The notes below the pieces were generated by a model that was given only the letters and a program-made list of their open reading frames with translations, was not told the origin of the DNA and did not search any database. The translations under genes were made by a program, and so were the position numbers. A stretch of 64,000 bases of DNA from Anabaena sp. PCC 7108 (GTDB lineage: Bacteria > Cyanobacteriota > Cyanobacteriia > Cyanobacteriales > Nostocaceae), in NCBI RefSeq assembly GCF_000332135.1, contig NZ_KB235896.1, positions 5,227,356 to 5,291,355 of the forward strand, in the 5' to 3' direction. Of this stretch, positions 23,061-52,741 are shown piece by piece; position 1 is the first letter of the stretch; every line of letters begins with the position of its first letter.

Positions 23061-23948
23061 TTAGTGATGCTGATTAAACCGAATCCCCAGAAAAACATCA
23101 TACAAGAACTCAAAAAAGTCCTTCTTCTGTAATAAACCTGAAGTTTGCGGACTACCCTTTTCATCCAATAACGGCTTCATCAAATAATAAGCCGGCTGGT
23201 AATTATACCAAGGAATCGAAGGCCACAAATGATGAACTAAATGGTAATTCTGCCCCAAAATCAGGATATTGAGAACTTTACCAGGATAGACGCGGGCATT
23301 TTTCCAGCGACTGCGCTCCACAAAAGGACGATGGGGTAAATAATCAAAAAATAACCCCAAGGCAATTCCTACCAAGAACGCCGGAATAAACCAAAAATTG
23401 AGAATATAGCCCAAAAAATGATATTGGACAGAAATATAAACAATAGTAATGACAATTAAACGGCTAATAAACCATTCCAGTAACTCATATTTCCGCCACA
23501 ATTGCCGTTGAAAGAAAAATACCTCATGGTATAAAAATCTGACTGCAATCAACCACAAGGGACCACCTGTAGAGACATAATGATCTGGGTCATCTTTAGG
23601 GTGATTCACATTACCATGATGCTGCAAATGTACCCGTGTAAAAACTGGAAAAGCAAAAGCTAAAATTAAGGCACTACAATGCCCTAACATGGCATTAATC
23701 ACACGGTTGCGATGGGCTGACTGGTGACAAGCATCATGAATTATTGTCCCAGAACAATGCAAGGCCAGAGTATTAATGCTAAAGCATAGCCAATGTGGCC
23801 ATTCCCAAACCCAATAACCAAAGTTAGATAACACCAACATTGTCACTACTACAAAAAACATGAGTAGTGTGGGATTAAAATCACCAGGAGGTGCTAAAAG
23901 TTCTTTGGGTGGGATTGTCAGTGGCTTTTGTGCCTCCGACGTAAGCAT
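23061..23948 (-). CDS. crtR: Beta-carotene hydroxylase CrtR (fatty-acid-desaturase superfamily)
   Basis: The 295-residue di-iron membrane enzyme adds the 3-hydroxyl groups to beta-carotene and related carotenoids to give zeaxanthin-type xanthophylls. Histidine boxes are HDACHQSAH, HLQHHGNVNH and YHLVHH, in the order and spacing of the desaturase superfamily. The start MLTSEAQKPLTIPPKE is that of cyanobacterial CrtR. AAAGGAG lies 6 nt before ATG 23948, which decides this start over upstream ATGs at 23951 and 23969. It sits downstream of psbA on the same strand but behind the psbA terminator, so it is expressed separately. An omega-type lipid desaturase is less likely given the N-terminus. Confidence 0.88.
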   Translation of the reverse strand: MLTSEAQKPLTIPPKELLAPPGDFNPTLLMFFVVVTMLVLSNFGYWVWEWPHWLCFSINTLALHCSGTIIHDACHQSAHRNRVINAMLGHCSALILAFAFPVFTRVHLQHHGNVNHPKDDPDHYVSTGGPLWLIAVRFLYHEVFFFQRQLWRKYELLEWFISRLIVITIVYISVQYHFLGYILNFWFIPAFLVGIALGLFFDYLPHRPFVERSRWKNARVYPGKVLNILILGQNYHLVHHLWPSIPWYNYQPAYYLMKPLLDEKGSPQTSGLLQKKDFFEFLYDVFLGIRFNQHH

Positions 23949-41419: not shown

Positions 41420-42052
41420 TCATTTGCTTGTATGAGCGAGTACCAAACTCATTAAACTATCTAAAATGCGATCGCGTGACAATGACATCATTTCTTTACC
41501 ATATAGTATTTCCTGCACCATCACATAGGATACCAATGAACCAAAAAAGATTTGCGCTGTTGCTTCTGGGTCAGTAATCCCCAATTCTGGGTGAGAAGCA
41601 AAATACTGACTCAGCAATTTCCTTCCGCGCTGAATCACGGTTTGAGTATATAGTTTTGCCAATTCTGGAAAGCGTTGTGACTCGGTGATAATCAAGCGGA
41701 ACAGTGCTAAATACTCAGGATTGTCAGCAACTTTTGTGAAATAAGTTTTGGCAATTTCACGTAAAAAAATCTCTGGTTCACTACGTATATCTTCTGCACA
41801 AAAAATACCTCGGAAACTATCAATTGTCACCCTTTCCATTAACGCTTTAAATAGTCCTTCTTTATCTTGAAAGTGACTGTATATAGTCTGCTTAGATACC
41901 CCAGCTTCAGCACTCACCCTATCCATACTAGTTCCAGCATAACCATCTCTCAAGAATATCTGCATGGCTCCTTGCAAAATTTGCTCCTGTTTTGGAGTGA
42001 TTTCTCTTAAAAGAGGTAAAGTTTCAGATTGGTGACTAGAAGTTTTGGACAT
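41420..42052 (-). CDS. TetR family transcriptional regulator
   Basis: The 210-residue protein has an N-terminal TetR helix-turn-helix (about 15-65: ITPKQEQILQGAMQIFLRDGY, GVSKQTIYSHFQDKEGLFKAL). The C-terminal domain ends FFGSLVSYVMVQEILYGKE, of the AefR/YbiH-like type often found beside multidrug exporters. It is divergent from the adaptor gene at 42159 with a 106-bp shared promoter region, the classical arrangement for a local repressor of the exporter. The downstream M48-like gene is in the same operon. Confidence 0.92.
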   Translation of the reverse strand: MSKTSSHQSETLPLLREITPKQEQILQGAMQIFLRDGYAGTSMDRVSAEAGVSKQTIYSHFQDKEGLFKALMERVTIDSFRGIFCAEDIRSEPEIFLREIAKTYFTKVADNPEYLALFRLIITESQRFPELAKLYTQTVIQRGRKLLSQYFASHPELGITDPEATAQIFFGSLVSYVMVQEILYGKEMMSLSRDRILDSLMSLVLAHTSK

Positions 42053-45752: not shown

Positions 45753-46859
45753 ATGAAAAGAATTCTTTCCCAGTGTATCAAAGAAATAGCACAATTTCGA
45801 CGAGATCGCTTAACTTTATCGTTAGCATTTTTATTGCCGTTTTTAACTCTATTGATTTTTGGATTTGCTATTCGTTTAGAAAGTAAGGATATTCCTCTAG
45901 TTGTCCAGGATTTTGACCGCACAAACCTGAGTAGCAGCTATATTGAACGGTTGTATGCTACCAATCAATTTATACCTAAACAATGGTCAGGAGGTAATCC
46001 AGCACGAGATGCAATTGACAGAGGAATTGCGAAAGCAGCGGTGATTATTCCTCCCCAATTCAGTCGAGATATTCAAGCTGGTAAAAATGCCAAGGTGCAA
46101 GTATTAATCGATGCCACAGATGTTAATAATGCTCGTGTCATTAGAGGTAGTATTCAAAGAGTAACTAATTTCTTCATGCAAGACCAAGGACTAATAGCAA
46201 ATAAAAGCATTATTACACCGCGAATCCGTTTGTGGTTTAACCCTGGTAGATTGGAATCGCTGTATATTGTTCCAGGAAGCTATGCTGTCGTGTTGTGGAT
46301 TTTCCCCTCAATGCTAACAGCAATCGCCATGGTGCGTGAAAAAGAAAAAGGTACAATTTTACAAGTCTATGCTTCTAGCATTAGTGCAACGGAACTGTTA
46401 CTTGGTAAAGGACTAGCTTACCTGCTACTTGCCATTACTGAAGCTTTAATAGTCATGGTATCGGGGTCAATAATTTTTCATATTGGCGTAATTAGTAACC
46501 CGATTACTTTGTTACTAGGAACTCTACTATTTTTGATGGCTAGTGTTTCCTTTGGTTTACTTATAGGGGTACGCAGCACTAACCAAAATTCCGCAGTACA
46601 AATTATTTCTCTTGTCGGTTTCATTACATCTTTATTGCTGTCGGGTTTTATTTATCCTCTCAGTAATATTCCTTTTCCCCTTTCACTAACACCTAATGTA
46701 TTTCCTGCCCGTTATTATATTGATATCACTCGTGATGCCTTTGTGCGTGGTACAGGATGGACAGGAGTTTGGTTTGACTTACTCATGCTTGCAGTTTTAG
46801 GATTTGTATTTTTCAATTTAGCGCGTCGGCTTTTAAGTCGAATGCAAATTGATAAGTAG
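45753..46859 (+). CDS. ABC-2 type exporter permease 1 (YbhS/YbhR-like)
   Basis: The 368-residue protein has one N-terminal membrane segment, then a large periplasmic domain (about 45-175) with VVQDFDRTNLSSSYIERL. Five C-terminal membrane segments follow, with AIAMVREKEKGTILQVYASSI in the first cytoplasmic loop, the ABC-2 signature. It follows the twin ATPase gene by 173 bp containing CGCTACGCG-type palindromic repeats. It should pair with the second permease at 51584. Confidence 0.92.
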   Translation: MKRILSQCIKEIAQFRRDRLTLSLAFLLPFLTLLIFGFAIRLESKDIPLVVQDFDRTNLSSSYIERLYATNQFIPKQWSGGNPARDAIDRGIAKAAVIIPPQFSRDIQAGKNAKVQVLIDATDVNNARVIRGSIQRVTNFFMQDQGLIANKSIITPRIRLWFNPGRLESLYIVPGSYAVVLWIFPSMLTAIAMVREKEKGTILQVYASSISATELLLGKGLAYLLLAITEALIVMVSGSIIFHIGVISNPITLLLGTLLFLMASVSFGLLIGVRSTNQNSAVQIISLVGFITSLLLSGFIYPLSNIPFPLSLTPNVFPARYYIDITRDAFVRGTGWTGVWFDLLMLAVLGFVFFNLARRLLSRMQIDK

Positions 46860-47119
46860 GTCAACGAAAGTCTAAAGCTCAACAAGCATAAATACTCTAT
46901 TGAGTCTAGCTGAAAAAACCTATTGTAATTCCCTATTAAGTGAAATCAGCAGACCATCAACAATTCCTGAAAAGTTTGTGTAATCTGCTTTTTTAATTCT
47001 GCCTTGCGGTACTAGCCTTAAAAACAATTATATCTTAATAAGAATTATCAGGACTCTCAGATGAATCTGCATTTTTATGAAATGCTTATTGAATTACTCA
47101 AAGGATTTGAAATATAACT

Positions 47120-48127
47120 ATGAAACGTTTAGTCATTTGTTGTGATGGAACTTGGCAACAGTTAACGAGTTCTTACCCAAGCAATGTGGTTAAGCTGGCT
47201 CAATCTGTGAAACCGATTGCCAGTGACGGGGTTGCACAAATCGTTTTCTATGACGCAGGCATTGGCACCGAAAGTCAAAGAATTTTAGGCGGAGCTACCG
47301 GATTAGGAATCGATAGAAATATAGAAGATGGCTACCGATTTCTTAGCCTCAACTATGTTCCTGGTGACGAAATTTATCTGTTCGGCTTCAGTCGCGGTGC
47401 TTACACAGTTAGGAGTCTAGCGGGGATGATCTATTGCTCCGGTCTCCTAGAGCGCCCCCATGTCACTAAAGCACATGAAGCTTACGAGCTTTACCGTAAC
47501 CGGGTTATTAAACCCAAAGATAGAGTAGCAACAAAATACCGTCAAATTTATGGCGATCGCGTCCCTATCACCTTGCTTGGTTGTTTTGACACCGTTGGCG
47601 CTCTTGGTATTCCTGGGATACCCGCTTTCCGAAGTTTGCACGACCAGCTAAATAAGCGGTACAGATTCCATGACACTACTTTAAACAAATTTATTGGCAA
47701 TGCATTGCACGCAGTGGCGATCGACGAAATCCGCGAAATCTTTGATGTCACTCCCATGAAAAAACATCCTGAGGCTGAAAACCAGCGGGTAATTCAAAAG
47801 TGGTTTCCAGGAGAACACGGTTGCGTCGGTGGTGGAACGGAAGAACACAGTGGGTTATCAGATACTGCCTTACAGTGGATGATTGATTCCATCGAGAATC
47901 TAGGATTGGGGCTTGACCTCGATCCTAGTGTGATTCCCACAGGCATTAACCCCAATTATGAATGTGACTTTAAGAACAATGTTGGCTTCTTTAAATTAGC
48001 AGGAATCAAGCTTCGCGAGGTCAGCGATGTGATTGAAGATATTCATGAAAGCGCAATCAACCGTCTGCAAAAGCGCAAGGACTATCGACCCAAGAATCTA
48101 CAAAAGATTATTTCCAAACTAGATTAA
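47120..48127 (+). CDS. DUF2235 family alpha/beta hydrolase, putative phospholipase
   Basis: The 335-residue protein begins MKRLVICCDGTWQ, the DUF2235 opening. The nucleophile elbow is LFGFSRGAYT with Ser91. Later motifs are LGCFDTVGALGIPG (acid Asp region) and the HAVAIDEIRE and WFPGEHGCVGGG segments with the candidate catalytic His. The same family includes Tle1-type phospholipase effectors. No signal peptide is present. It lies 80 bp upstream of the fatty-acid dioxygenase gene on the same strand, which suggests that it releases the fatty acid substrate; this is inference. Confidence 0.85.
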   Translation: MKRLVICCDGTWQQLTSSYPSNVVKLAQSVKPIASDGVAQIVFYDAGIGTESQRILGGATGLGIDRNIEDGYRFLSLNYVPGDEIYLFGFSRGAYTVRSLAGMIYCSGLLERPHVTKAHEAYELYRNRVIKPKDRVATKYRQIYGDRVPITLLGCFDTVGALGIPGIPAFRSLHDQLNKRYRFHDTTLNKFIGNALHAVAIDEIREIFDVTPMKKHPEAENQRVIQKWFPGEHGCVGGGTEEHSGLSDTALQWMIDSIENLGLGLDLDPSVIPTGINPNYECDFKNNVGFFKLAGIKLREVSDVIEDIHESAINRLQKRKDYRPKNLQKIISKLD

Positions 48128-48207
48128 GTTGAATGAACTTAGGTAAGTAAATCAGAGAATTTAGTGTAAATTGAATACATCAGTTTTAAAAAAAGGTAAC
48201 AATAATT

Positions 48208-49836
48208 ATGACTGCAAAAAGAGACACATCTAAAGACGGTTTTAGCAACAAGCTTCAGACATTTGTTTTAACAAACTTTGAAGGCATTTGGCAACTTATT
48301 CAAAGCAATGAATCTCTAAAACGTACAGTTAACAAAGCTCTAATTAATAGTCTCATCTACAAAATTCCTACTCGTCCTAATGCCTACAGTATGATGACCT
48401 TAGATGAGCATATTCCTGATACTAAAATTCCTAAAAAAACTGATACTTATACTTCCTGGGAATCCCTCAAAGATCGCACTTATACAGGAAGACATCTACC
48501 ACCTGATCCAAAGTTAAATGCTGAGGGCAATTTACCTAAAGTTGAAGACTTGGCTGTTTTGTTCCGTAAAAGAGATGGTAAAACAATTTATTCTCCCAAA
48601 TCAACTATGCTGTTTCCCTATTGGGTGCAGTGGTTTACTGATAGTTTCCTCCGCCTTGATCACACTAATAAATTAAAAAATACCTCCAACCATGAAATTG
48701 AATTATCTAATGTTTATGGTTTAACCAGAAAACAAACACATCTTTTAAGAACCTTTCAAGGAGGTAAATTTAAAACTCAAAAACTTAAGCGCCAAGATGG
48801 TGTAGAAGAAGATTATCCCTTGTTTTATTATGCTGATCCAGAACAAGGTATAGTTGATCCTCAATTTGAGGGACTTTATGAACCCATCAATGATGAGAAA
48901 AGACAGCCCGCAGATAAAAAACAATATATGTTTGCAATGGGAGTAGAACGAGCAAATGTGCAAATTGGCTATGTCATGCTCAATACTATGTGTATCCGGG
49001 AACATAATCGTCTTTGTGATGTATTAGCCAGCAATTATCCAGATTGGGATGATGAACGCCTCTTCCAAACTTCGAGAAATATTCTCATGGCGATGATTCT
49101 CAAAATCATTATGGAAGAGTACATTAATCACATCACTCCTTATCACTTTAAGTTGTTTGCTGATCCTGAAGCTTTTACTAAGGAAAGTTGGCATCGTACC
49201 AATTGGATGGCAATTGAGTTTGACTTTGTTTATCGCTGGCATAGTGCGATTCCAGAAACCTTTAAATATAATGGTCAACCAACCCATATTGCTACAACTC
49301 TCTGGAACAATAAGCTGTTTATTGACCAAGGTTTAGGTGCATTGATGGAAGAAACTTGTTCCCAACCAGGGACAAGAATTGGTCTATTCAACACACCTGA
49401 TATATTGGTTGAGTTAACCGAGTTACCCTCAATCAAACTAGGACGACAACTGCAATTAGCAAGCTACAACGATTATCGAGAAATGTGTGGTTTCCCCAGA
49501 GTGAATAGATTTGAGCAAATTACCAGCGATGAATTTACTCAAAAGAAACTCAAAGAATTATATGGTCATGTAGATAAAATTGAGTTTTTTGTGGGACTTT
49601 ACGCTGAGGATGTGCGGCAAAATTCAACGATTCCTCCTCTAGTAGCACGTTTAATTGGGATTGATGCCTTTTCTCAGGCGCTAACTAATCCTTTACTATC
49701 ACCCAATATTTTCAATAAAGAGACTTTTTCTCCTGTGGGTTGGGAAATTATTCAAAATACCAAAACTGTTTCAGATTTAGTGAATCGTAACGTTCCTCCA
49801 TCAGATAAGAAGTACAAAGTTACTTTTGACCTCTAG
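48208..49836 (+). CDS. Cyclooxygenase-like fatty-acid heme dioxygenase (linoleate 10S-dioxygenase type)
   Basis: The 542-residue protein belongs to the peroxidase/cyclooxygenase superfamily. The distal haem His266 sits in REHNRLCD, exactly as in COX. The proximal His345 and radical-forming Tyr342 sit in the YRWH signature (FVYRWHSAIPETF). A Nostoc punctiforme homologue with YRWH is a linoleate 10S-dioxygenase encoded next to a catalase-related hydroperoxide lyase. The same pairing is seen here, with the partner 85 bp downstream. Alternatives are other fatty-acid dioxygenases of this class. No EGF-like domain or signal peptide is present, so it should be cytoplasmic or membrane-peripheral. Confidence 0.88.
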   Translation: MTAKRDTSKDGFSNKLQTFVLTNFEGIWQLIQSNESLKRTVNKALINSLIYKIPTRPNAYSMMTLDEHIPDTKIPKKTDTYTSWESLKDRTYTGRHLPPDPKLNAEGNLPKVEDLAVLFRKRDGKTIYSPKSTMLFPYWVQWFTDSFLRLDHTNKLKNTSNHEIELSNVYGLTRKQTHLLRTFQGGKFKTQKLKRQDGVEEDYPLFYYADPEQGIVDPQFEGLYEPINDEKRQPADKKQYMFAMGVERANVQIGYVMLNTMCIREHNRLCDVLASNYPDWDDERLFQTSRNILMAMILKIIMEEYINHITPYHFKLFADPEAFTKESWHRTNWMAIEFDFVYRWHSAIPETFKYNGQPTHIATTLWNNKLFIDQGLGALMEETCSQPGTRIGLFNTPDILVELTELPSIKLGRQLQLASYNDYREMCGFPRVNRFEQITSDEFTQKKLKELYGHVDKIEFFVGLYAEDVRQNSTIPPLVARLIGIDAFSQALTNPLLSPNIFNKETFSPVGWEIIQNTKTVSDLVNRNVPPSDKKYKVTFDL

Positions 49837-49921
49837 GAGATATTCCGCATCAATCAGCTTTTAGTGCGATCGCTTTAGCAAACAAGTGATCGCCACAATT
49901 ATTACATCAACCTGTAAAAAC

Positions 49922-51103
49922 ATGAAACTATTTACCGAATACCCAGAAAAAGACGAAGCAAAATATTGCGCTCTCATGAGTGAGTTAGTCAAAAAGAACA
50001 TGGACAACCTTTACGGAGGTGAAAAGAAAAAAATTGCCAAAAGAGATACTCACTCAAAAACCCACGCGGCTGTTCAAGGTACTCTAGAAATCTTTGACTT
50101 TGATGAAGCAGCAATTAAGCAAGAACTGAGCAAACACACCTCATTAACTGAAGCTCAACTTCAAGCAATTTCCCTAAAACAAGGTTTATTTGCCCAACCG
50201 AAACAATATCCAGTTTGGCTACGATTTGCAAGTGGTGCGTTCTCAGTCAAGGGTGATTATGAAGGCGATACGCGCTCTATGGCCGTAAAAGTGATCGGGG
50301 TAGAAGGAGAACGACTACCACAAAGTCACGAGTTAAAAACCCAAGATATTATTGTCCACAATACCGAACTCTTTTTTGTGAGAAGCATTAAAGACTTCTA
50401 CGGCTTTTTTTTGGCGATTTATCGAGCAGGGTTGTTTCCACTTTTTAAGCTGTTAGTGCTTTTATGGCTAAACTTACATCCCTACGAATTCAATCTTTTA
50501 AAAACTAGTTTCAAACGGTTTCCCAAAACTTTGCTTATAGAACGCTATTGGAGTGCTTCAGCATATTCTCTAGGACTCAAATCTGATTTTGATCCCTACA
50601 AACCAGGTCGAGTTCCTGTAGAATATCCATCTGTGATTAAATATGGGTTTATTCCGGTTTCCAGTCAACCACCTCATCAACAACTTTCTCTAGAGTCCAG
50701 ATCAGAAAGCGAGCTAAGAAAAGCCAAAGCTTTAGGTTCAGAGGATAACTACTACCGGGAGGATATCATTCAAGCTTTAGCAAAACCTGATGCTGAGTAT
50801 ACTTGGGATTTTCAAATCCAATTTCAAACTAAACCAGAAATGTCCATTGATGATACCACCATTCCTTGGAATGAAGAAGAATCACCCTTCTTTACAATTG
50901 GTCGTCTGACAGTTAAGCATCAGAAGGTTGATTCTCCCCTAGAAAATGACTTTGGGGAAAATCTCAGTTTTTCTCCAGGGAATGGTCTAGCAGTACATCG
51001 TCCTATCGGTGCGATTAATCGGTTACGCAGCATTGTTTATCCGATTGTGGCTGAGTCCCGTCACAATAAACGAGGAGTCGAATACCAGGAACCCACTGTC
51101 TGA
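49922..51103 (+). CDS. Catalase-related hemoprotein, fatty acid hydroperoxide lyase type
   Basis: The 394-residue protein is a short catalase relative. The distal helix reads KRDTHSKTHAAVQG: Thr43-His44 replaces the catalase Val-His, a change typical of catalase-related allene oxide synthases and hydroperoxide lyases. Further catalase landmarks are PVWLRFASG, DTRSMAVKV, NTELFFVRSIKDF (distal Asn) and RYWSASAYSLG (proximal Tyr candidate). It is much shorter than true catalases. By analogy with the N. punctiforme pair it should cleave the 10S-hydroperoxide to 10-oxo-decenoic acid and C8 alcohols. ATG 49922 is chosen over a GTG 12 codons upstream because the protein-like sequence begins there. 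Confidence 0.85.
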   Translation: MKLFTEYPEKDEAKYCALMSELVKKNMDNLYGGEKKKIAKRDTHSKTHAAVQGTLEIFDFDEAAIKQELSKHTSLTEAQLQAISLKQGLFAQPKQYPVWLRFASGAFSVKGDYEGDTRSMAVKVIGVEGERLPQSHELKTQDIIVHNTELFFVRSIKDFYGFFLAIYRAGLFPLFKLLVLLWLNLHPYEFNLLKTSFKRFPKTLLIERYWSASAYSLGLKSDFDPYKPGRVPVEYPSVIKYGFIPVSSQPPHQQLSLESRSESELRKAKALGSEDNYYREDIIQALAKPDAEYTWDFQIQFQTKPEMSIDDTTIPWNEEESPFFTIGRLTVKHQKVDSPLENDFGENLSFSPGNGLAVHRPIGAINRLRSIVYPIVAESRHNKRGVEYQEPTV

Positions 51104-51295
51104 CTTTTCACAGCAATTCAAGAACCCAAGAAATAGAAATTGTATGTGAAGTTGCAGAGAATGACGAAATCCATGAATTCCAGAAGTATTTATCTGCGAT
51201 AGTTGTCCTGGAAATCTTATTTTATGCAACTTCATTTTCAGCAAGATATCAGTTTGTTAACAAATTATATGAATATTGCACAAGCTTCTCTAATA

Positions 51296-51418
51296 GGACT
51301 TACGCAAGTGTCACACTAAAAATCTCTTGTAGGGTGCGTCAGACTGCATAAATCCTGCAAATAAACAGATTATTGATATCTGACGCACCCTACTAATATG
51401 CCAGTTGCGTAAGTCCTG
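51296..51418. mobile_element. MITE-like element with GGACTTACGCA ends, copy 3 (complete)
   Basis: Perfect terminal repeats AGGACTTACGCAA and TTGCGTAAGTCCT flank an inner perfect pair GTAGGGTGCGTCAGA / TCTGACGCACCCTAC. It is 123 bp, non-coding, and the best preserved of three copies in the window. Confidence 0.8.
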
Positions 51419-51419
51419 T

Positions 51420-51552
51420 CTAAGTAGGTTGGCGTTAAAAATTGTTGTTATGACAAGGGAACAGGGAACAGAGAAGAGATTTTACTTTTCGTTACATAGT
51501 ACTCTTCGAGAAGCCGCTGCGCGTCTACGGTTTTTTCGGTTCACCTACTTAG
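51420..51552. mobile_element. MITE-like element with CTAAGTAGGT ends, copy A
   Basis: Begins CTAAGTAGGTTGGCGTTAAA and ends ACCTACTTAG; 133 bp. Shares its first ~40 bp and the TTTACTTTTC..CACATA segment with copy B at 52812-52945. It contains GGGAACAGGGAACAG and TCTACGG-type filler. Confidence 0.75.
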
Positions 51553-51583
51553 AACAATTTAGATACTATACTTTTTCTCAAAA

Positions 51584-52741
51584 ATGATTAATCACCAACT
51601 AAATCATATGAAATATATTTGGCAATATATTTGGCGATTGTTTGATAGTCCATTTTGGTCATTAGTGCAGAAAGAAATTAATCAAATTCTGCGAAATAGA
51701 GAATTAATTGTTTTGTTAATTGTGCCACCAACAGTACAATTATTACTTTACGGATTTGCACTTAATCCAGATGTTCATAATTTACGATTGGGTGTAATTG
51801 ATTATGCAAATGTATCTGCAAGTCGAGAACTAGTTTCAGCAATGACATCCAATCACACTTTTAAATTAGAATCTGTACCAACCAATGAAAAAGATTTAAG
51901 CCGCCAAGTAGAAGAAGGTAAGCTAGATGTTGGGATCATAATTCCACCAGATTTCCCACGTCAACTAGCCAAAAAATCAGCAGAAATTCAAGTATTTATC
52001 GATGGAGTAAATGCAAATACAGCAGGTATTGCTGCTAACTATGTTAGTCAAATTATTCAACAATATAATCTCACCTTAATGCCAGATATAGTTAGTATCC
52101 CAGTCTCAACTGAAGTTGTTTTTCTTTACAATCCCGGACTCATAAGTAGTTGGTTTTTCATACCAGGAGTTATGGGTTTAGTCCTGACATTAATTGGCAC
52201 ATTAGTATCAGCAGTAACTGTTGTCCGCGAGAAAGATACAGGAACTTTGGAGCAATTGTTAATGACTCCATCTACAAACTGGGAAATTTTATTAGCTAAA
52301 ATTGTTCCATTGGCATTTCTACTCATGGGAGATGTGCTACTAGCTTTGACGTTGGGAACAGTCGTATTCAATGTGCCATTTCGTGGTAGTTTTCTGCTAT
52401 TTATCGCCTTATCAAGTATGTATGTATTTGTGGGAATTAGTTTGGGAATTATGTTGGCAACTATTTGCGGTTCTCAACAACAAGTATTACTCACATCCTT
52501 TTTTATAAATTTACCAATGATACAAACTTCTGGGGCGATATCTCCTATTGAAGCTATGCCCTCTTTGTTTCAATTTCTCTCTCTATTTAATCCCCTACGA
52601 CATTACATCACAATTGTGCGCGGTATTTTACTCAAAGGAGTTGGTTTAGATGTTTTGTGGTTAAATGTTTTAGCATTAATCGGTTTTGCTGTTGTGTTAT
52701 TAACTATTAGTGTTAACAAGTTTCGTAGTCAATTAAGCTAA
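51584..52741 (+). CDS. ABC-2 type exporter permease 2 (YbhR-like)
   Basis: The 385-residue protein has the same architecture as permease 1: one N-terminal segment (LIVLLIVPPTVQLLLYGFAL), a periplasmic domain starting RLGVIDYANVSASRELV, then five segments with SAVTVVREKDTGTLEQLLMTP. ybhGFSR-type exporters need two such permeases, so it should complete the exporter at 42159-46859, although it is 4.7 kb away. ATG 51608 (MKYIWQYIW) is an alternative start, because the first residues look repeat-derived. Confidence 0.9.
   Translation: MINHQLNHMKYIWQYIWRLFDSPFWSLVQKEINQILRNRELIVLLIVPPTVQLLLYGFALNPDVHNLRLGVIDYANVSASRELVSAMTSNHTFKLESVPTNEKDLSRQVEEGKLDVGIIIPPDFPRQLAKKSAEIQVFIDGVNANTAGIAANYVSQIIQQYNLTLMPDIVSIPVSTEVVFLYNPGLISSWFFIPGVMGLVLTLIGTLVSAVTVVREKDTGTLEQLLMTPSTNWEILLAKIVPLAFLLMGDVLLALTLGTVVFNVPFRGSFLLFIALSSMYVFVGISLGIMLATICGSQQQVLLTSFFINLPMIQTSGAISPIEAMPSLFQFLSLFNPLRHYITIVRGILLKGVGLDVLWLNVLALIGFAVVLLTISVNKFRSQLS

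Follow-up and report, generated by a model that had tools for sequence, protein, structure and literature searches.

The present analysis concerns three genes that lie in one row on the + strand of a stretch of 64,000 nucleotides (nt) from the genome of Anabaena sp. PCC 7108, hereafter called the window: a DUF2235/Tle1-like serine hydrolase and predicted lipase (LIP, 47120..48127), a cyclooxygenase (COX)-like haem dioxygenase (DOX, 48208..49836) and a catalase-related haem protein (CRP, 49922..51103). An earlier note on this DNA had described this order on a single strand, with gaps of 80 nt (48128..48207) and 85 nt (49837..49921), and had proposed that the lipase belongs to a path leading from membrane lipid to a C8 volatile. 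The layout was borne out by the open reading frames (ORFs) and by Pfam, and the motifs GFSRGAY in LIP and REHNRLCD and YRWH in DOX were all found in the translations. Judged by the linkage counts given below, the arrangement of the trio is far from chance. No name was obtained for LIP, DOX or CRP of the window in NCBIfam at E-values up to 0.001.

The three encoded proteins

In the case of LIP (335 amino acids), Pfam identified PF09994, the catalytic domain of type VI secretion system (T6SS) Tle1-like phospholipases, with an E-value of 2.5e-79. We take this family to be the former DUF2235, and plasmid relatives of LIP carry the DUF2235 annotation. Three residues were invariant across 23 aligned LIP sequences: Ser91 in GFSRG, which is the predicted nucleophile within the GFSRGAY motif at 47384..47404 (+ strand), Asp157 in CFDTV and His233 in PGEHGCVGGG. 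In a profile search of the PDB, the Asp and His motifs of the Tle1 structure 4O5P aligned with those of LIP; these residues, together with the serine, are presumably the ones that form the Tle1 triad. LIP thus shares with the Tle1 phospholipases the family of the catalytic domain, the GxSxG nucleophile and the Asp and His in matching motifs, which places it by sequence in the Tle1-like (DUF2235) phospholipase family, and a phospholipase or lipase is predicted. It differs from them in being a protein of 335 residues that stands beside an oxygenase or is fused to it, with no sign of a type VI effector role.

The second and third genes correspond to a known pair. Brash et al. are said to have described in 2014 a 10S-dioxygenase and a catalase-related 10S-hydroperoxide lyase of Nostoc punctiforme, by which a 10S-hydroperoxide is made and cleaved to 1-octen-3-ol. 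The DOX of the window matches PF03098 (E-value of 3.2e-50), and its best match in the PDB is prostaglandin G/H synthase 2 (E-value of 1.1e-64). REHNRLCD is found at residue 264; FTDSF, YINHIT and FVYRWH begin at residues 143, 305 and 340, respectively, the first Tyr after FV being Y342. Across all 75 DOX sequences compared, F143, D145, Y305, Y342, H345 and A487 were identical. The length of 542 amino acids equals that given for the N. punctiforme 10S-DOX in passages of PMC13049297, and FTDSF at 143, Y305-IxxIT310, F338, Y342, I483, A487 and Q490 coincide with the published numbering. Two letters depart from the published motifs, namely Val at 469 (published Gly) and Pro at 477 (published Ala). 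Altogether, the COX fold, the proximal His, the catalytic Tyr (Y342 in YRWH), FTDSF and IMxxYIxxITPY are present, with differences at 469 and 477, and the protein is predicted to be a linoleate 10S-dioxygenase. As stated in passages of the same source, the N. punctiforme enzyme acts on oleic and linoleic acid, and the N. punctiforme pair forms the 10S-hydroperoxide and then cleaves it to 1-octen-3-ol (PMC13049297, PMC9579011). Eight fatty-acid desaturase matches were detected in the Anabaena sp. PCC 7108 genome, three of them close together; therefore, linoleate is plausible in this organism. One of the eight lies in the window itself (23145-23801), about 23 kb from the trio.

In the case of CRP, translation from the ATG at 49922, conserved in 26 aligned sequences, gives 393 amino acids; a longer version from a GTG at 49886 is among the ORFs listed. 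The match to PF00199 was barely over the cut-off (25.4 versus 25 bits). A profile of the 26 sequences ranked the coral allene oxide synthase 1U5U first in the PDB (E-value of 2.1e-7). The predicted structure, with a predicted local distance difference test score (pLDDT) of 82.8, has a catalase fold and the 33-kDa catalase-related protein as its top structural match, the coral enzyme appearing at ranks 35 and 38. H44, R369 and Y373 were invariant in the 26 sequences. The Thr-His pair that had been placed in a distal helix was recovered as T43-H44 (ATG numbering); the helix was not, as the model puts both residues in a low-confidence loop before the first barrel strand. T43 is kept except in the three most divergent CRPs (L042, L043 and L030, 28-34% identical to that of the window), where Glu or Gln replaces the Thr before the distal His and where the hydroperoxide chemistry may possibly be different. 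A catalase fold, a distal His preceded by Thr, a proximal RxxxY and a length below that of catalase together qualify the protein as catalase-related. It is 88% identical to the CRP of N. punctiforme NIES-2108, a comparison with a sequence other than that of the assayed strain. CRP is a predicted 10S-hydroperoxide lyase; allene oxide synthase or catalase chemistry would be the alternatives.

DOX and CRP are separate genes in the window, as are the dioxygenase and the catalase-related enzyme of N. punctiforme in the account of PMC13049297. This is unlike the description, in a passage of a review (PMC11719350), of a cyanobacterial protein as a catalase-haem dioxygenase fusion. The difference from the N. 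punctiforme pair, besides residues 469 and 477, is the added lipase gene.

Linkage and surroundings of the cassette

Absence of a conserved linkage between the DUF2235 gene and the pair in relatives had been named beforehand as an outcome that would refute the proposal; the linkage was present. A scan of genome contigs with DOX yielded 61 DOX loci. LIP was counted as linked if it lay on the same strand at most 500 nt upstream of DOX, in loci with at least 1300 nt of upstream flank, and CRP if it lay at most 800 nt downstream, in loci with at least 1500 nt of downstream flank (n=57 in each case). LIP stood directly upstream of DOX in 32 loci, with gaps of 64-308 nt, 15 of them within 75-93 nt, and CRP downstream in 44. 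Among the 54 loci with both flanks, 30 had LIP and CRP, 12 CRP alone, one LIP alone and 11 neither.

A search of 386 genomes of the phylum gave DOX in 18, with E-values up to 1e-10 and three weak cases; LIP-like proteins were detected in 33, with 41 matches at E-values up to 1e-20. The 16 LIP matches of at least 65% identity were found beside DOX (10), beside lipoxygenase (LOX; 5) or beside neither (1); in the genome of this last one (G358), DOX-CRP is located on another contig. The 25 matches of at most 57% identity showed no DOX, CRP or LOX in the 17 regions inspected, one of which was cut by a contig end. In one of these paralogue regions (L170), a cytochrome P450 (P450) gene, 29% identical, lies about 1.8 kb off. 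DUF2235 domains were also observed within longer proteins (674-1889 residues) of other cyanobacterial families (L174, L175, L176, L178), and no DOX, CRP or LOX was seen in the regions read there.

The tree of LIP (68 rows) agrees with this division. Trees were of the quick type, supported by the Shimodaira-Hasegawa-like approximate likelihood ratio test (SH-aLRT) only, and the DOX tree omits 12 of 87 loci with a short DOX or none. The 45 DOX-linked and five LOX-linked LIPs form one clade (SH-aLRT 99), within which the LOX-linked five are a subclade (SH-aLRT 98), and all 18 unlinked rows fall outside.

In the window, TetR, HlyD, ABC and permease genes lie on both sides of the trio, with HlyD, ABC and the permeases on its strand, so that an exporter of the oxylipin would be a conceivable part of the system. 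But at 27 of the 29 other loci returned, from a family in which 45 of 99 genomes had a match, permease 1 (45753..46859, +) and permease 2 (51584..52741, +), both of the ABC-2 type, adjoin each other with no cassette between them; close permease copies occur at only one DOX locus, that of the window. The two nearest relatives, Anabaena lutea and A. catenula, share the cassette in blastn and lack both ABC parts; both have break points at 41525, 47060 and 53031, and of TetR a remnant of 39 residues is left. The shared stretch begins at 47060 and ends at 51180 (A. lutea) or 51187 (A. catenula), which defines the whole block as 47060..51187 (+). Therefore, the cassette is a block placed into an exporter operon, and the exporter is no lasting partner; it was set aside as a candidate, both permeases are judged to be context outside the cassette, and a role in export seems very improbable.

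Consensus scans of 46860-51583, which includes the LIP-DOX gap, showed neither a promoter-like site on the + strand nor a terminator-like site; they gave fewer sites here than in shuffled sequences. This is compatible with one transcript, without being proof of it. Some other proteins recur near the cassette. Very large ones were found at eight loci (L005, L007, L008, L015, L018, L019, L024, L046); by eye they look VWA-like, and the one scanned with Pfam gave a sub-threshold DUF445 match alone. Small ones were found at three (L007, L011, L015), with a sub-threshold H-type lectin match in the one scanned.

Fused and exchanged partners

LIP and DOX were found joined in the genus of genome G334, which is probably Microcoleus, because the DOX proteins of three of its loci (L147, L148, L145) are identical to those of Microcoleus loci (L028, L027, L054). 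DOX is present in 11 of the 29 genomes searched of this genus, which is the only one of the 11 genera of its family to have it (11 of 61 genomes). In six of the 11 (L073, L074, L149, L150, L151, L152), LIP and DOX occupy a single stop-free frame of 905-951 codons, and a motif check confined such a joint frame to these six among 84 DOX loci. Four genomes of the genus have the other DOX type and a separate LIP; in one of them (G099, L162:6107-7315), DOX is split by a DDE transposase gene, and the flanking LIP and CRP frames remain open. A DOX-CRP fusion had been suspected from the long frames, until reading of the frames showed LIP to be the fused partner.

The linker of the joint frame, counted from the last LIP motif, measures 44-57 codons and changes in length by whole codons only, and shuffled linkers remained open in 3.5-5.6% of 5000 draws each. 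The frame was kept while the two fused lineages diverged by a synonymous distance (dS) of 0.75 in LIP and 1.3-1.5 in DOX, and none of the six fusions has lost the GxSxG, Asp, His or YRWH motif. As the LIP part of the fusions lacks a stop codon, ribosomes translating it continue into DOX. In the L150 fusion the ancestral DOX ATG is lost, with GTG and TTG codons nearby. The trees of LIP, DOX and CRP gave no decision between a single and a multiple origin of the fusion.

While LIP remains the same, its partners vary: two DOX types and LOX were found. In the case of L076 (genome G167), identity to the window proteins is 87% for LIP and 86% for CRP but only 62% for DOX; therefore, the middle gene was probably exchanged. 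In five loci a lipoxygenase replaces DOX-CRP, with a P450 between LIP and LOX in four of them (L153, L155, L156, L157) and none in L154. The P450s of L153, L155 and L156 carry an N-terminal extension of about 146 residues. Among the best 60 of 450 PDB matches, the L153 P450 resembled mostly bacterial P450s and fungal P450nor, and no plant allene oxide synthase appeared. On plasmids of Rhizobium and Sinorhizobium (L243:2724-3980, L244:2724-4004), the gene directly upstream of DOX encodes a P450 of the same type, 38-42% identical. A P450 likewise homologous to that of the LIP-P450-LOX loci also precedes DOX in a cyanobacterium (L056:1170-2543), an arrangement like that of the fungal DOX-P450 fusions. 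In UBA11370 (L026:5659-12986), P450, lipoxygenase, DOX and CRP follow each other in one row without LIP, as two adjoining oxylipin modules. The LIP-linked LOX type was not found in the Anabaena sp. PCC 7108 genome at E-values up to 1e-20.

This LOX bears on the order of the reactions. It closely matches 5EK8 of the PDB (1269 bits, residues 2-668), which we take to be Cyanothece CspLOX1, the enzyme of Newie et al. 2016; an assignment as Cyanothece LOX2 was discarded, as LOX2 is PDB 5MED and matched weakly. According to a passage of PMC5437038, the product of CspLOX1 is 9-hydroperoxyoctadecadienoic acid (9-HPODE), and a passage of PMC6612559 mentions a suggestion that the lipoxygenase from Cyanothece PCC 8801 described by Newie et al. 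2016 oxygenates membrane lipid. DOX or LOX might therefore act first, on membrane-bound acyl chains, with LIP releasing the oxidised chain for CRP or P450, and the whole of the genomic evidence for the lipase-oxygenase tie fits this reverse order equally well. Against it stand the reported use of oleic and linoleic acid by the N. punctiforme 10S-DOX (PMC13049297) and the fusion, in which the lipase part precedes the dioxygenase part, a suggestive point only. We consider the reverse order rather unlikely.

Pfam was run on selected neighbours, some of them not the nearest, in 21 of the 29 LIP-less loci, and in three of these 21 other hydrolase families occur beside DOX. In HT-58-2 (L005) a class-3 lipase (Lipase_3) lies directly upstream; in UBA11371 (L052) a patatin lies two genes upstream, the intervening gene having a sub-threshold SCP2 match; in a metagenome-assembled genome of Eremiobacterota (L031) a marginal DUF900 match, an alpha/beta hydrolase, lies directly downstream. 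Family counts in three genomes (Lipase_3 2, 1 and 3; patatin 2, 3 and 3, two of the last three in one frame) served as background, because a scan of 120 random ORFs from the loci, read in the 25 most numerous of 184 families, gave no usable lipase rate. HT-58-2 (7.9 Mb) has two Lipase_3 matches, the strong one being the gene beside DOX, and UBA11371 (8.5 Mb) three patatin matches. Directly upstream of DOX, a PAP2 phosphatase was found in L055 and the P450 already mentioned in L056; the neighbours scanned in the remaining 16 loci included no lipid enzyme, bar the LOX of L026. A further lipase-LOX link is possible in L192 (genome G072), where two other lipoxygenase genes have in their vicinity a class-3-lipase-like stretch with 36% identity over about 112 residues.

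A predicted lipase as the probable entry to an oxylipin path

The reading that we favour, and regard as probable, is a mobile oxylipin cassette that would lead from membrane lipid through a 10S-hydroperoxide to C8 volatiles, with LIP feeding DOX. LIP would act on glycerolipids, and the C18 fatty acids set free (linoleate, oleate) would go to DOX, which would convert them to the 10S-hydroperoxide. Cleavage of this hydroperoxide by CRP would yield 10-oxo-8-decenoic acid together with C8 alcohols, 1-octen-3-ol among them. LIP is thus likely to be a functional third component of the DOX/CRP path, going by gene arrangement and sequence. Hence the joining of a lipase to this path, as first proposed, stands at the gene level (linkage, fusion in six genomes, one oxylipin-linked clade and other hydrolases in three loci), while its wider interpretation is partly supported: we infer the lipase activity and its lipid substrate, the action of LIP before DOX, co-transcription, formation of the same products here as in N. 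punctiforme, and a function in signalling or deterrence.

Several observations weigh against LIP as such a component. LIP is absent beside DOX in 25 of the 57 loci, and LIP and CRP are both absent in 11 of the 54; therefore, DOX does not depend on LIP. No LIP was found within 4 kb of DOX in six plasmid records (one cyanobacterial, five proteobacterial), where the partners, if any were recognised, were CRP-like proteins or P450. Internal ATG starts persist in five of the six fusions, so free DOX could be made too. The similarity to the solved Tle1 is weak (E-value of 0.052 overall with the LIP profile in the PDB), the predicted LIP structure is poor (pLDDT 46.6) and unfit for a fold search, and DUF2235 paralogues without oxylipin neighbours exist, one of them, 54% identical to LIP, in the Anabaena sp. 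PCC 7108 genome itself.

The breadth of this family, with the 17 inspected paralogue regions free of DOX, CRP and LOX, and the weak resemblance to Tle1 would suit a hydrolase of something other than membrane lipid, such as a pathway product or some different ester. The Pfam family, however, is named for the Tle1 phospholipase, and the class-3 lipase, the patatin phospholipase and the alpha/beta hydrolase beside DOX point to hydrolysis of lipid esters; a different substrate is accordingly improbable. The many loci without LIP would also agree with a neighbourhood that arose by hitch-hiking, without common function, as a cassette that moves as a block is able by itself to hold unrelated genes together. 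The fusion, the occurrence of LIP beside either DOX type as well as beside LOX, and the other hydrolases beside DOX make such an accident hardly credible.

Beyond the trio of the window, one clade of DUF2235 lipases may form the constant gateway of modular oxylipin cassettes, with an exchangeable oxygenase (two DOX types or a mini-lipoxygenase) and an exchangeable haem enzyme (CRP or P450), and with a fused lipase-dioxygenase that would, in some genomes, channel membrane fatty acid to the active site. We lean towards this wider view with some reserve.

Related combinations are known elsewhere. In animals, a phospholipase, COX and the enzymes of prostaglandin formation act as a cascade. This cascade and the fungal DOX-P450 fusions (PMC13049297) likewise involve a lipase, a COX-fold dioxygenase and a haem enzyme acting on the peroxide, as an analogy of logic; here, in contrast, one bacterial gene block is involved, and the final step falls to a catalase-like enzyme or, in the version with LOX, to a P450. 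Catalase-lipoxygenase fusions (coral 3DY5; Acaryochloris, in a passage of PMC11719350) also combine a catalase-fold enzyme with a fatty-acid oxygenase, sometimes in one chain, whereas here a COX-like oxygenase is fused, where a fusion occurs, to the lipase and not to the catalase-like protein. The literature searched, which did not take in Brash 2014, contained no published link of a DUF2235 lipase to the dioxygenase. The pathway is known, and its variant with a lipase as third component is likely to be new.

To our knowledge, the route by which free polyunsaturated fatty acid is supplied to bacterial oxylipin enzymes is an open question. A lipase with a genetic tie to a COX-like dioxygenase, amounting to fusion in some genomes, would be a direct entry point into the oxylipin path. 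It would parallel the coupling of phospholipase and cyclooxygenase in animals, and the route from membrane lipid to the 'mushroom alcohol' would be testable with three genes or one fusion protein.

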